Source: Lachnospiraceae bacterium C1.1 (lineage in GTDB: Bacteria > Bacillota > Clostridia > Lachnospirales > Lachnospiraceae). Taken from it: a stretch of 64,000 bases of DNA. Below the pieces are notes generated by a model. It did no database searches. It was not told the DNA's origin and worked only from the letters and a program-made list of their open reading frames with translations. Both the position numbers and the translations under genes were made by a program. The DNA lies in contig JAUISW010000001.1 in assembly GCA_030434875.1 (NCBI GenBank), positions 248,001-312,000 of the forward strand. Direction: 5' to 3'. Positions within the stretch are counted from its first letter, which is position 1, and every line of letters starts with the position of its first letter. Positions 52,362 to 61,661 of the stretch are shown here, in pieces.

Positions 52362-52721
52362 ATGAGAAACAAGATTGCTATGGTTATGGTATCAGCTATG
52401 GTTGCAGCTACACTTATGATGGGTTGTGGTTCTTCTTCATCAAGCGCTTCAACAGAGGCAGCTTCAACTGCAGCAGCTTCAACAGAGGCAGCATCAACAG
52501 AAGCAGCATCAACTGAGGCAGCTTCAACAGAGGCAGCATCAACAGAGGCAGCTTCAACAGAGGCAGCTTCAACAGAAGCAACTGAGGAGGCTTCAACAGA
52601 GGCAGCTTCAACAGAGGCAACTGAGGAGGCTTCAACAGAGGCAACTGAGGAGGCTTCAACAGAGGCAGCATCAACAGAGGCAGCTTCAACAGAGGCAGCT
52701 TCAACAGAAGCAGCAAAGTAA
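52362..52721 (+). CDS. Small lipoprotein made of Ala-Ser-Thr-Glu repeats
   Basis: This 119-aa protein has a lipoprotein signal peptide ending in MMGC (Cys about residue 22). The rest consists of tandem repeats of the 5-residue unit STEAA, with the variant STEATEE inserted in places. No folded domain is present, so it may be a spacer or brush-like coat component. The repeats are close to identical at DNA level (GCTTCAACAGAG units), which makes the gene prone to length change. A strong AGGAGG precedes the ATG and a perfect terminator follows, which suggests high expression. Confidence 0.75.
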   Translation: MRNKIAMVMVSAMVAATLMMGCGSSSSSASTEAASTAAASTEAASTEAASTEAASTEAASTEAASTEAASTEATEEASTEAASTEATEEASTEATEEASTEAASTEAASTEAASTEAAK

Positions 52722-58429: not shown

Positions 58430-59320
58430 ATGAAGAAACGGAATTTAAGCAAATTAGGGATAGCAGTAAGTGCAGCAATGCTTACACTTGCAATGGTTGG
58501 ATGCTCATCAACAACAGGCAGCATAGCTTCAACTGAGGTTGCAGCTGTTTCAGAAGCACCTACAGAAATGCCTTCAGAGATGCCTACAGAAGCAGCTGAA
58601 GCAGAGGGAACGGAAGTACGTGCTAAAATAGTTTCGATTGATGGAGAGACAATTACTTTAGAAACTCTTGCCGATGGAAAGATGGGCGGCAAAGATGATA
58701 AGAAGATGGGTGAAAAGCCGGATTCAGATTCTACAGAAGAGGCAGCTACAGGCGAAGCTCCTGAGGGAGCACCTAATGGAGAAGCACCAACAGGGGAAGC
58801 ACCAACAGGAGAAGCACCAACTGGTGAGGCACCAACTGGTGAAGCTCCTACAGATGGAAAAGGCGGCCCCCAGGGCGGCGGTCAGGGTGGCCCCGGCGGA
58901 AATCAGAATGGAGAAAAACCTACTGGTGAGAAGCCTAGCGGCGAGCAGCCCAGCGGTGAGAAACCGAGTGGTGAGCAGCCTGGCGGTGAGAAGCCCAGTG
59001 GTGAGCAGCCTAGCGGTGAGAAACCTGAAGGTTCCACAGAGGAGGCAGCTGAGGCAGAGGGAACAGGCGAGACACTTACCCTTACACTTACAGACGCTAC
59101 AGAATATAAAGATTGTACAGTTGATGATCTTGAAGCAGACACTCTTGTTGTTGTAAGCTATAATGAAAATAATGAAGTAGTTTCAATATCGCTTGCAGAT
59201 GGAAAAGATGCTCCGGCTGAACCTGCAGCTGAGGAGTCAACAGAAGAGAGTTCGACTGAGGAAAGCTCAACAGAAGAAAGCACAACAGAAGAAAGCACAA
59301 CAGAGGAAACAGCAGAATAA
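58430..59320 (+). CDS. Repeat-rich lipoprotein with GEAPT and GEKPSGEQP repeats
   Basis: This 296-aa protein has a lipoprotein signal peptide ending in MVGC (Cys about residue 25) and a Thr/Glu/Pro linker. A DUF5666-like beta strand pair begins at RAKIVSIDGETITLETLADG near 65-84. A repeat region with GEAPT (five or so copies) follows, then a Gly/Gln-rich patch, then alternating GEKPSG and GEQPSG units. The second half of the beta motif comes next (LTLTLTDATEYKDCTVDDLE), and the tail is made of ESSTE repeats. The repeats thus split a small domain. Function is unknown; surface display of an extended acidic chain is likely. Confidence 0.7.
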   Translation: MKKRNLSKLGIAVSAAMLTLAMVGCSSTTGSIASTEVAAVSEAPTEMPSEMPTEAAEAEGTEVRAKIVSIDGETITLETLADGKMGGKDDKKMGEKPDSDSTEEAATGEAPEGAPNGEAPTGEAPTGEAPTGEAPTGEAPTDGKGGPQGGGQGGPGGNQNGEKPTGEKPSGEQPSGEKPSGEQPGGEKPSGEQPSGEKPEGSTEEAAEAEGTGETLTLTLTDATEYKDCTVDDLEADTLVVVSYNENNEVVSISLADGKDAPAEPAAEESTEESSTEESSTEESTTEESTTEETAE

Positions 59321-59426: not shown

Positions 59427-59463
59427 GAATATATATATATATAAATGGAAAGAGGATGACCAA

Positions 59464-60618
59464 TTGAAAAATGTTTTTATAAAACTGCCGGTTTATACAG
59501 GTGATGTTTCCGGAGCGGCATCGGCATTATATGAGCTTGGAGGAATGAGCGTGATCCATGATCCCTCCGGCTGCAATTCAACATACAATACCCATGACGA
59601 AATCCGCTGGTATTCTAAAGAAAGTCTTATTTTTATCTCAGGGCTTTCCGAGGTTGATGCAATAACCGGTAATGACAATAAGTTCATCAAAGATGTGCTT
59701 AATGCAGCGGAGAAGCTTAAGCCGGCATTTATTGCGCTTTTTAATTCTCCGATACCTTATATAAACGGGACAGATTTTAAGGGAATAGCAAAGATAATAG
59801 AAAATAAAAGCGGGATACCATGTTTTCATATAGAGACTAATGCAATGCATGATTACAGTGTAGGTATTTCAAACGCTTTTTATGAATACGCACGCAAATT
59901 TCTTCCGGATGAAAAAAGAGATAAAGTGTCCGAGGATAAAGATCAAAAGAAAAAAGTTAATATTATCGGAATGACCCCGCTTGATTATAGTTCAAAAAAT
60001 ACGTATTTAACTCTTAAGAATAAAATGGAAAAAGAGGGTTTTAAGATAATTTCCATTTGGGCAGAAGGAAGCAGCAGAGAAGAAATTCTTGCAGCTTCAG
60101 AGGCTGATATAAGCCTTGTCATATCTTCCTCCGGAATAAGAGTTGGAGAATTTTTAAGGGAAAAATATGGCATACCATATCTGACAGGTGTACCGACAGG
60201 ACTTTTTGCAAAAAAAATTTTTGAAAAATTAGATAATTTTGAATTTTGCTCTTCAGAAAAACTATTTTTGTCCGATAATAAATACAGAGCTGAAACGCTT
60301 GTCGTAGGTGAAAGCGTATTATCCTTAAGTCTTGCGGCTGAATATGAGCTGGAGACCGGAAAAAAGGCAGATGTAATATCGACCACTGAGCTTGGAAATG
60401 AATATTTAAGAGATTCAGATAAGGCAATCAGGGTTGAAAAAGAGTTAATGGAAGAATTTAAGAATTATCAAATGATAATTGCTGATCCTTTATATAGAAG
60501 GATAGCACCTTCAACAGCAAAATTTATCGATATTCCGCATCTTGCATTTTCTGGGCGTTTATATCTAAAAGGTATTCCGGATTTTTTCAGTGAAAGTTTC
60601 AGTGTGGTGGATTTATGA
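59464..60618 (+). CDS. Nitrogenase component 1-like protein with degenerate P-cluster ligands
   Basis: This 384-aa cytoplasmic protein has the NifD/NifK-family pattern. SVIHDPSGCNSTYN (Cys37) corresponds to the central P-cluster Cys region (HGPVGC). Rossmann-like repeats follow: FIALFNSPIPYINGTDF, IPCFHIETN, VNIIGMTPLDYSSKNTYL, a second domain around EADISLVISSSG, and YGIPYLTGVPTG. The first and third P-cluster cysteines of nitrogenase are not found at the expected places, so a full P-cluster is unlikely. It is a single protein without a NifH-like or second component gene nearby. The TTG at 59464 is favoured by AGAGGA 7 bp upstream. The HydE-like gene overlaps its stop by 4 bp, so the two probably act together. 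Substrate unknown. Confidence 0.78.
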   Translation: MKNVFIKLPVYTGDVSGAASALYELGGMSVIHDPSGCNSTYNTHDEIRWYSKESLIFISGLSEVDAITGNDNKFIKDVLNAAEKLKPAFIALFNSPIPYINGTDFKGIAKIIENKSGIPCFHIETNAMHDYSVGISNAFYEYARKFLPDEKRDKVSEDKDQKKKVNIIGMTPLDYSSKNTYLTLKNKMEKEGFKIISIWAEGSSREEILAASEADISLVISSSGIRVGEFLREKYGIPYLTGVPTGLFAKKIFEKLDNFEFCSSEKLFLSDNKYRAETLVVGESVLSLSLAAEYELETGKKADVISTTELGNEYLRDSDKAIRVEKELMEEFKNYQMIIADPLYRRIAPSTAKFIDIPHLAFSGRLYLKGIPDFFSESFSVVDL

Positions 60619-61661
60619 CAAATAAAGAATTGACAGATAAGCTTAAAGAGACATCTATTCTCAGTAAGGATGAGTTTAGGCAGCTGACAGGCAGCATGAA
60701 TAAAGACGACGAGGAGTATCTTTATGCAGCTGCCAGAGAAGTTAAAGAAAAATATTATGGCAAAGATGTTTTTTTAAGAGGCCTTATAGAATTCAGTAAT
60801 TTTTGCAAAAATGACTGTTATTATTGCGGGATAAGACGAAGCAACAGTCATGCAGAGAGATACAGGCTCAGTAAGGAAGAGATATTATCGGCTGTAGAAA
60901 AAGGATATGAATTAAGCTTTAGAACCTTTGTACTGCAGGGTGGAGAGGATTTAAGCTATAGTGATGATGATATATGTGATATTGTGAGATCTATAAAAGA
61001 GCTTTATCCGGATTGTGCAGTAACTCTTTCCATAGGTGAAAAAGAAAGAAAGACATATGAAAAATATTTTGAGGCTGGAGCAGACAGATATCTTTTAAGG
61101 CATGAAACTGCAAATGATGTTCATTATGCCAAACTTCATCCGGCAGAATTATCGCTTGAAAACAGAAAGAGATGTCTTAGGGATCTTAAGGAAATTGGTT
61201 TTCAGACAGGCGCAGGAATGATGATAGGGGCGCCTTTTCAGACATTGGAGAATCTTATAGAGGATCTCTTTTATCTTAAAGAACTTGAACCACAAATGGT
61301 TGGCATAGGCCCGTTCATTCCACATAAAGATACTCCTTTTAAGGATGAAAAGGCAGGAAAGCTTGAAGATACGCTTCATTTTCTTGCGATAATAAGGCTT
61401 ATGCTCCCAAAGGTGCTTCTGCCCGCAACTACGGCACTGGGAACAATTGATCCGCAGGGCAGAGAAAAAGGACTAAGGGCAGGAGCTAATGTAATAATGC
61501 CGAATCTTTCGCCATTGAATGTCAGGGGAAAATATCTTTTATATGATGGAAAAATCTGTACGGGAGAGGAAGCTGCCGAATGCTCGGAATGCATGAAGAG
61601 AAGGATCGAATCCGTTGGATACAGAGTTATGATATCAAGAGGAGATGCGCCGGGTTTTTGA
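60615..61661 (+). CDS. hydE: HydE-like radical SAM enzyme
   Basis: This 348-aa radical SAM protein has the cluster motif Cys64-x3-Cys68-x2-Cys71 (FCKNDCYYCGIRR), GLIEFSNFC before it, and the barrel motifs FVLQGGEDLSY and LLRHETAND. Near the C-terminus a further Cys-x7-Cys-x2-Cys pattern (KICTGEEAAECSEC) has the same spacing as the accessory cluster of Thermotoga HydE, as I recall it. HydE helps assemble the diiron H-cluster of [FeFe] hydrogenase with HydF and HydG, neither of which is in the window. The 4-bp overlap with a nitrogenase-like gene suggests either a dedicated role there or a HydE paralogue. The symbol is by family. Confidence 0.85.
   Translation: MTNKELTDKLKETSILSKDEFRQLTGSMNKDDEEYLYAAAREVKEKYYGKDVFLRGLIEFSNFCKNDCYYCGIRRSNSHAERYRLSKEEILSAVEKGYELSFRTFVLQGGEDLSYSDDDICDIVRSIKELYPDCAVTLSIGEKERKTYEKYFEAGADRYLLRHETANDVHYAKLHPAELSLENRKRCLRDLKEIGFQTGAGMMIGAPFQTLENLIEDLFYLKELEPQMVGIGPFIPHKDTPFKDEKAGKLEDTLHFLAIIRLMLPKVLLPATTALGTIDPQGREKGLRAGANVIMPNLSPLNVRGKYLLYDGKICTGEEAAECSECMKRRIESVGYRVMISRGDAPGF

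Follow-up and report, generated by a model that had tools for sequence, protein, structure and literature searches.

Why would the gene of a nitrogenase-fold protein run directly into that of a maturase for [FeFe] hydrogenase? The question is posed by the genome of Lachnospiraceae bacterium C1.1, in a stretch of 64,000 nucleotides (contig JAUISW010000001.1, positions 248,001 to 312,000; hereafter, the window) in which a gene that we call W overlaps hydE. From the gene content and linkage recorded here, we consider it highly probable that W and hydE belong, as a detached piece, to a dedicated system by which the [2Fe] portion of the H-cluster is assembled in the absence of HydG; the replacement of HydG by a module of nitrogenase-like (nfl) and hyp genes is, of all the claims made here, the one we hold most firmly as very probable. 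The elements concerned are as follows.

59464..60618, plus strand: W (nflX1), 384 amino acids, nitrogenase component-1-fold protein, K-type partner of the protein X
59451..59456, plus strand: likely ribosome-binding site of W, AGAGGA, 7 nucleotides before the TTG start (direct sequence reading)
60615..61661, plus strand: hydE, 348 amino acids, radical SAM maturase of the [FeFe]-hydrogenase H-cluster, assigned by TIGR03956 score and motifs
Operon L024, minus strand, elsewhere in the genome: nflH-nflDK-hypF-hypC-hypD-hypE-X-hydF, with hydF last

The gene pair and its genome

Both open reading frames were confirmed, with the start codons TTG for W (59464) and ATG for hydE (60615), and so was the 4-bp overlap already read in the initial annotation: its sequence, ATGA, lets the end of W double as the start of hydE. 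The window HydE scored 578 bits with TIGR03956 (cut-off 254.6) and 176 bits with the PylB model (cut-off 348), which rules out an identity as PylB or another radical SAM enzyme; the label "HydE-like" given to it initially had the family right and understated the case, the protein being a bona fide HydE. As had been claimed, it keeps the cysteines of both the radical SAM site, C64-x3-C-x2-C (C64KNDCYYC), and the C-terminal site, C315-x7-C-x2-C. In an alignment of 26 HydE with the window protein, columns C64, C68 and C71 are conserved, and CX3CX2C, taken as a position-bound text match, is present in 24 of the 26.

W is recognized by the Pfam model PF00148, Oxidored_nitro (101.5 bits, cut-off 28.6); nine NCBIfam models also matched it at E 0.01, with a score under the cut-off in every case. 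It reaches 34.8 bits with the nifD model (cut-off 653.6), which places it outside the NifD/NifK equivalogs, and falls equally outside those of BchB (40 bits, cut-off 490) and CfbD (17.5 bits, cut-off 268). With the scores below these equivalog cut-offs, membership of the classical nitrogenase or F430/DPOR families is ruled out.

The source genome (4.23 Mb, 99.99% complete) has a single HydE over cut-off, namely the window gene, and a single HydF (547 bits). HydG was not found over cut-off anywhere in it, the sole match of the HydG model being HydE itself at 65.9 bits against 312. Two [FeFe] hydrogenases exceed their family cut-offs (group A, 472 bits against 406; group B1, 593 against 450), and catalytic domains of this type occur at three places. 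A separate hydE beside hydF and hydG, which the initial annotation had thought worth looking for, was not found over cut-off. The pairing was to be judged incidental if the window gene were the only hydE of a genome with [FeFe] hydrogenase, hydF and hydG elsewhere, and the pair were not conserved; the genome indeed has no other hydE over cut-off and its hydF lies elsewhere, but hydG was not found.

The partners of the pair are encoded in operon L024. NflH (250 amino acids) scores 315 bits with the CfbC equivalog model (cut-off 402) and is outside that equivalog; NflDK (776 amino acids) is a fused double component 1, and X has 416 amino acids. HypF, HypD, HypE and HydF of the operon exceed their NCBIfam cut-offs. 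HypC, with its Cys2 present, was identified by reading the stretch that separates HypF from HypD, not by a family search; HypA and HypB were not noticed in the operon, no search having been aimed at them. In BLAST comparisons the match of X is to the N half of NflDK (92 bits), while W reaches 121 bits with the C half and 49 bits with the N half, and on these half-matches X is assigned as the D-type and W as the K-type partner, split over two loci in the source genome. The X protein is 98% identical to that of a Lachnospiraceae metagenome-assembled genome (L069). W, described initially as a lone nitrogenase-like protein in a two-gene unit, is therefore neither: it is the K-type partner of an X encoded with hydF, and W and hydE belong together with nflH, nflDK, hypFCDE, X and hydF. 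The reported absence of a NifH-like reductase, a second component, HydF and HydG was correct within the window; the first three are present elsewhere in the genome, and only HydG was not found there.

The full set of P-cluster cysteines is present in neither X nor W. W has C37 only, within the motif DPSGCNS, and no cysteine at the second aligned cluster position, in agreement with the single P-cluster-type cysteine noted at the outset; X has C34 and C94, plus C30. H32, C37 and H44 of W are kept in 76 of 76 aligned relatives. AlphaFold models were made of W and X, each as a single chain; structure comparison places the fold of W closest to subunit B of DPOR, and the structural neighbours include NifN/NifE and DPOR.

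Conservation of the module and distribution of HydG

The linkage of these genes was counted in named loci with X, the best 80 of 173 relatives, many of them cut by contig ends. Besides X itself (80), they contain W (75), HypE (72), HypD (70), NflH (64), HypC (64), HypF (62), the N-part (55) and C-part (50) of NflDK, HydF (41) and HydE (24); any hyp gene is found in 73 of the 80, and hydF or hydE in 45. The common order is nflH-nflD-nflK-hypF-hypC-hypD-hypE-(nflH2)-X-W-hydF-hydE. Directly before X stands HypE in 40 loci, an NflH (nflH2) in 32 and neither in eight; directly after X stands W in 69, HydF in three and neither in eight. The 76 W genes are followed by HydF in 29 cases and by HydE in four; in the other 43 a different gene comes next or the contig stops. 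Conservation of the pair, on which the question of an incidental pairing also turned, hence holds for the linkage of W, X, hydF and hydE, whereas W followed directly by hydE is found in only four of the 80 loci. Linkage together with co-occurrence rules out that an orphan nitrogenase-like gene came to lie beside hydE by accident. Catalytic motifs are kept throughout the module: C-terminal PR[IVL]C of HypE (69/69), MC of HypC (65/65), GPGCPVC of HypD (72/72), CxH..HCxxC of HydF (42/42) and the cluster motifs of NflH. The initial proposal that the two families are joined in a maturation system outside the Nif, Bch, Cfb and Hyd pathways gains support from this linkage and gene content.

The relation to HydG emerges from a census of HydF, HydG and X over one set of 293 Clostridia genomes. 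HydF was over cut-off in 200 genomes and HydG in 190; 183 of the genomes with HydF also had HydG, and 17 were without HydG over cut-off. X, counted at E 1e-160 or better (18 of the 293 genomes match at E 1e-20), occurred in 13 of the 17, in none of the 183 with both proteins and in none of the 93 without HydF. The Fisher p for 13/17 against 0/183 is 2.7e-17, a value that ignores kinship, which inflates the significance. The 13 genomes span seven genera and six families, and within a single genus (g58) six genomes have X without HydG (G050, G119, G138, G173, G252 and G268) and three have HydG without X (G074, G207 and G283). Five weaker matches to X (1e-59 to 1e-94; G063, G117, G125, G131 and G231) were excluded as another subfamily once the score gap and the gene maps, with no hyd or hyp matches beside them, had been seen. 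Four of these genomes have HydF and HydG, and G125 has neither; with the weaker matches counted as X, the figures become 13/17, 4/183 and 1/93. The loci L062-L065 (G117, G131, G063 and G125) hold a sister cluster, nflH-X'-W', with no hyd or hyp matches alongside; in three of the four, three open reading frames come next that are sized like the transporter genes of locus L057, described below.

Among the named genomes with X, 50 of the 80 were tested for HydG, isolates first (two of these 50, G339 and G342, are G138 and G252 of the census, with the same coordinates). HydG was over cut-off in one, and in the other 49 the HydG-model matches were 206 bits or less (cut-off 312), many of them about 55-90; the matches at 167-206 bits are, at a guess, ThiH. 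An [FeFe]-hydrogenase domain is present in 62 of 63 entries for genomes with X (61 distinct genomes), the miss being G316, of 1.5 Mb. Genomes with X do not form one clade in the trees of HydE and HydF, which require four and five label changes, of which the starred branches force at least one (HydE) and at least two (HydF). The trees, weakly resolved, suggest a history of several swaps, a number that for HydE is not demonstrated.

The hyp genes of the module mostly stand in genomes without a nickel hydrogenase. HypD was found in 52 of the 293 Clostridia genomes and in 10 of the 13 with X. A [NiFe] large subunit matched in five of 61 genomes with X (the source genome among the five) as compared to 19 of 19 genomes with HypD and without X, these being the first in listing order of 42 and including G063. 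Three of the 61 have no HypD match, in a genome-wide search that covered only the Clostridia genomes of the census. The HypD tree comprised 37 of 72 module HypDs and 20 others, namely the second copy of the source genome, 17 from [NiFe]-matching genomes and two from genomes unchecked for [NiFe]. Module HypDs form one side of a 100/100 branch, apart from the second HypD of the source genome, which lies outside the module and adjoins that genome's [NiFe] gene.

A further tie to [FeFe] hydrogenase is provided by a small TM1266-family protein, which carries the annotation iron-only hydrogenase system regulator (106.6 bits, cut-off 60.8) and whose usual place is between hypE and either X or nflH2. 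It accompanies 67 of 94 module loci (some of them split contigs, and a few of them repeat records of one genome), 12 of 20 control loci with HydG and none of 20 HypD loci outside the module. The genes hydE, hydG and hydF occur together in seven of the 20 control loci (L153, L155, L156, L157, L161, L165 and L166).

As judged by eye from translations, the neighbours of the gene pair in the window are unrelated to it: a lipoprotein-like and two aminotransferase-like open reading frames upstream, and flagellar-type ones downstream. Lipoprotein-like frames at 52362-52721 and 58430-59320 consist mostly of STEAA-type and GEAPT/GEKPS-type repeats, again by eye. The source genome has a second, different nitrogenase-like cluster (L025, G000:C1:622000-641000) with a NifH over cut-off (468 bits), a NifB-like protein below it (268 bits, cut-off 344) and two D/K pairs far under the NifD/NifK cut-offs. 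Cysteine synthases, NifS/NifU-like genes and an amino-acid-type ABC transporter were seen there by eye, and we presume that it may be a sulfur-salvage reductase such as methylthio-alkane reductase. Two hydrogenase matches of the same score near the ends of C1 (2795-3667 and 4081521-4082393) are probably one gene seen twice. The same W protein is found on a listed contig of 4078724 bases, which suggests that C1 is a circular chromosome whose ends overlap by about 13.8 kb.

The proposed route and its rivals

HydG is known to convert tyrosine into CO and CN, and the Fe(CO)2(CN) synthon is passed to HydE (PMC11736057). In [NiFe] maturation, HypF and HypE produce a cyanide donor from carbamoyl phosphate (PMC4506123) and HypC and HypD hold an Fe(CO)(CN)2 unit (PMC6802093); nitrogenase Fe proteins alone can reduce CO2 to CO (PMC9571451). 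In the route that we propose, HypF and HypE would use carbamoyl phosphate to form a cyanide donor, borne by the C-terminal cysteine of HypE, and HypC-HypD would transfer the cyanide onto an iron. NflH, as an ATP-driven nitrogenase-like reductase, together with NflDK would deliver low-potential electrons, most likely for the conversion of CO2 into CO ligands. X-W, as a second component 1, would carry or complete an Fe(CO)x(CN) synthon and hand it over to HydE, after which the ordinary steps of HydE and HydF would follow. The pathway is a prediction from genomes: what was observed is the gene content and linkage, the near-complete mutual exclusion with HydG, the presence of [FeFe] and scarcity of [NiFe] hydrogenases, the retained catalytic residues and the separate HypD clade, and the chemistry is inferred. 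A cyanide supply from HypEF we regard as probable. The making of CO by the nitrogenase-like proteins is put forward tentatively, with doubt somewhat the stronger, and a full second route to the H-cluster, in which nitrogenase-like reduction of CO2 to CO and [NiFe]-type Hyp cyanide chemistry jointly replace HydG, is a plausible proposal to which we give slightly less belief than disbelief.

Published activities bear on the question. Blautia luti, with the hydrogenase genes HydABC and HydM, is reported to make H2 during growth and to use it in resting cells; its crude extracts showed about 20-640 mU/mg, and about 23,000 mU/mg is quoted for B. schinkii (PMC12773636). The genomes that we examined of both species, from strains that may differ from those assayed, have X, no HydG and no [NiFe] match. 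Taken together with the published activity, these genomes make it likely that active [FeFe] hydrogenase without HydG is real.

Several observations sit uneasily with the proposed route. HypCD normally holds an iron with two CN ligands and a single CO, the H-cluster requires one CN together with two CO, and one step is consequently missing from the pathway. Oliverpabstia intestinalis (G298, L101) combines nflH-X-W-hydF with a full HydG (936 bits) near hydrogenase domains, the one exception seen to the mutual exclusion of X and HydG. Four of the 17 genomes with HydF and without HydG have no X either (G140, G240, G243 and G288), so that HydG is missing in some genomes without the module. No HypD match was found in G061, G126 and G195, which have X, and the source of cyanide is unexplained there. 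In the source genome W and hydE are far from operon L024; TM1266 was found neither in the window nor in L024 and, conversely, lies beside hydF and hydE in a locus without X (L068, G243, which holds hydE, hydF and the TM1266-like protein). The Cys37 loop in the AlphaFold model of W is of low confidence.

The strongest competitor, which we consider possible though slightly less probable than the tentative CO2-reducing role, keeps the pathway and changes its chemistry: cyanide would come from HypEF/HypCD, the nitrogenase-like proteins would be scaffolds or redox partners, and CO would arrive from elsewhere, for example from carbon monoxide dehydrogenase or from HypCD's own CO source in anaerobes. 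NifEN, the scaffold for FeMo-co, offers the analogy. The position of X-W between the hyp genes and hydF fits such a role, as do the conserved cysteines in the cluster region, one in W and three in X, the presence of NifN/NifE and DPOR among the structural neighbours, and the fact that, despite the lack of a HypD match, X-W remains linked to hydE in G061 and to both hydE and hydF in G195. The occurrence of nflH2 directly before X in 32 of the 80 named loci speaks against it by suggesting ATP-driven turnover there too. For the genomes without HypD a different explanation is conceivable, albeit improbable: a FecCD-type transporter would import an iron synthon or metal chelate that NflH2 and X-W process. 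Their loci (L057 in G195, L059 in G126 and L061 in G061), from genomes without HydG over cut-off, indeed combine X-W and nflH with a FecCD-type importer, each with genes for Peripla_BP_2, FecCD and an ABC ATPase next to X-W, one of the ATPases being fused to a TM1266-like domain. We know, however, of no uptake of an H-cluster precursor, and the usual cargo of FecCD systems is siderophores, heme or cobalamin.

We think it very unlikely that the module serves another Fe-CN-CO enzyme while the hydrogenases are matured weakly by HydE and HydF alone, from CO and cyanide that happen to be present. According to an account in PMC9431212, HydF produced with only HydE gave an in vitro activation of about 1%, and the four genomes lacking both HydG and X could be read in the same sense. 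Strong X is nevertheless confined to genomes missing HydG among the 293 searched and is linked to hydF, hydE and TM1266, and the very high activity quoted for B. schinkii (PMC12773636) is difficult to reconcile with weak maturation. Scarcely more credible, indeed a shade less, is a divergent HydG that escapes detection, with the nitrogenase-like/Hyp module as an accessory. Atypical HydG candidates have been reported in acetogens (PMC9431212); against this stand the ceiling of 206 bits in 49 of the 50 named genomes and the fact that the only HydG-model match in the source genome was HydE.

The proposed system can thus be compared to its relatives. With HydE-HydG-HydF maturation it shares the hydE and hydF families over cut-off, [FeFe] hydrogenases in the source genome and the TM1266 regulator in related module loci; it differs by nfl and hyp genes beside hydE/hydF, and the tyrosine lyase HydG was not found in the source genome. 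Like HypCDEF of [NiFe] maturation, it has HypF, HypD and HypE over equivalog cut-offs, the Cys2 of HypC and intact catalytic motifs, and unlike it, it has its own HypD clade, co-located hydF and mostly no [NiFe] hydrogenase in the genome. A NifH-like Fe protein and a D/K-type component-1 fold recall DPOR, CfbCD, Mar and NifEN, from which the corresponding proteins are set apart by scores under the cut-offs of the matched NCBIfam models, by the single conserved cysteine of W and the three of X in the cluster region, and by a context of hydrogenase-maturation genes. In acetogenic Clostridium genomes with HydE and HydF, a search by motif likewise failed to find HydG in five of eight species; the authors proposed atypical HydG or HydG-free activation, and the relevant part of their paper draws no link to Hyp or nitrogenase-like proteins (PMC9431212).

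Meaning for hydrogen metabolism

A HydG-less H-cluster pathway linked to Hyp or nitrogenase-like proteins is not described among the matches listed from open-licence PMC papers, and prior publication elsewhere is possible. HydG is described as the dedicated source of CO and CN for the H-cluster; if the proposal is true, there would be two routes to this cofactor. Nitrogenase-like enzymes would gain a role in organometallic assembly, and the cyanide chemistry of Hyp would reach beyond [NiFe] enzymes. The second route might extend, as records are named, to human-gut and rumen Lachnospiraceae, Oscillospiraceae, Saccharofermentans-type bacteria and Atopobiaceae/Coriobacteriaceae, an assignment that we give a little less than even credence. 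The module itself was found in records named Blautia, Roseburia, Coprococcus, Faecalicatena and Eubacterium. With its presence in these gut genera it bears on H2 metabolism in the gut, and it would provide a handle on where the CO comes from when hydrogenases mature in anaerobes.

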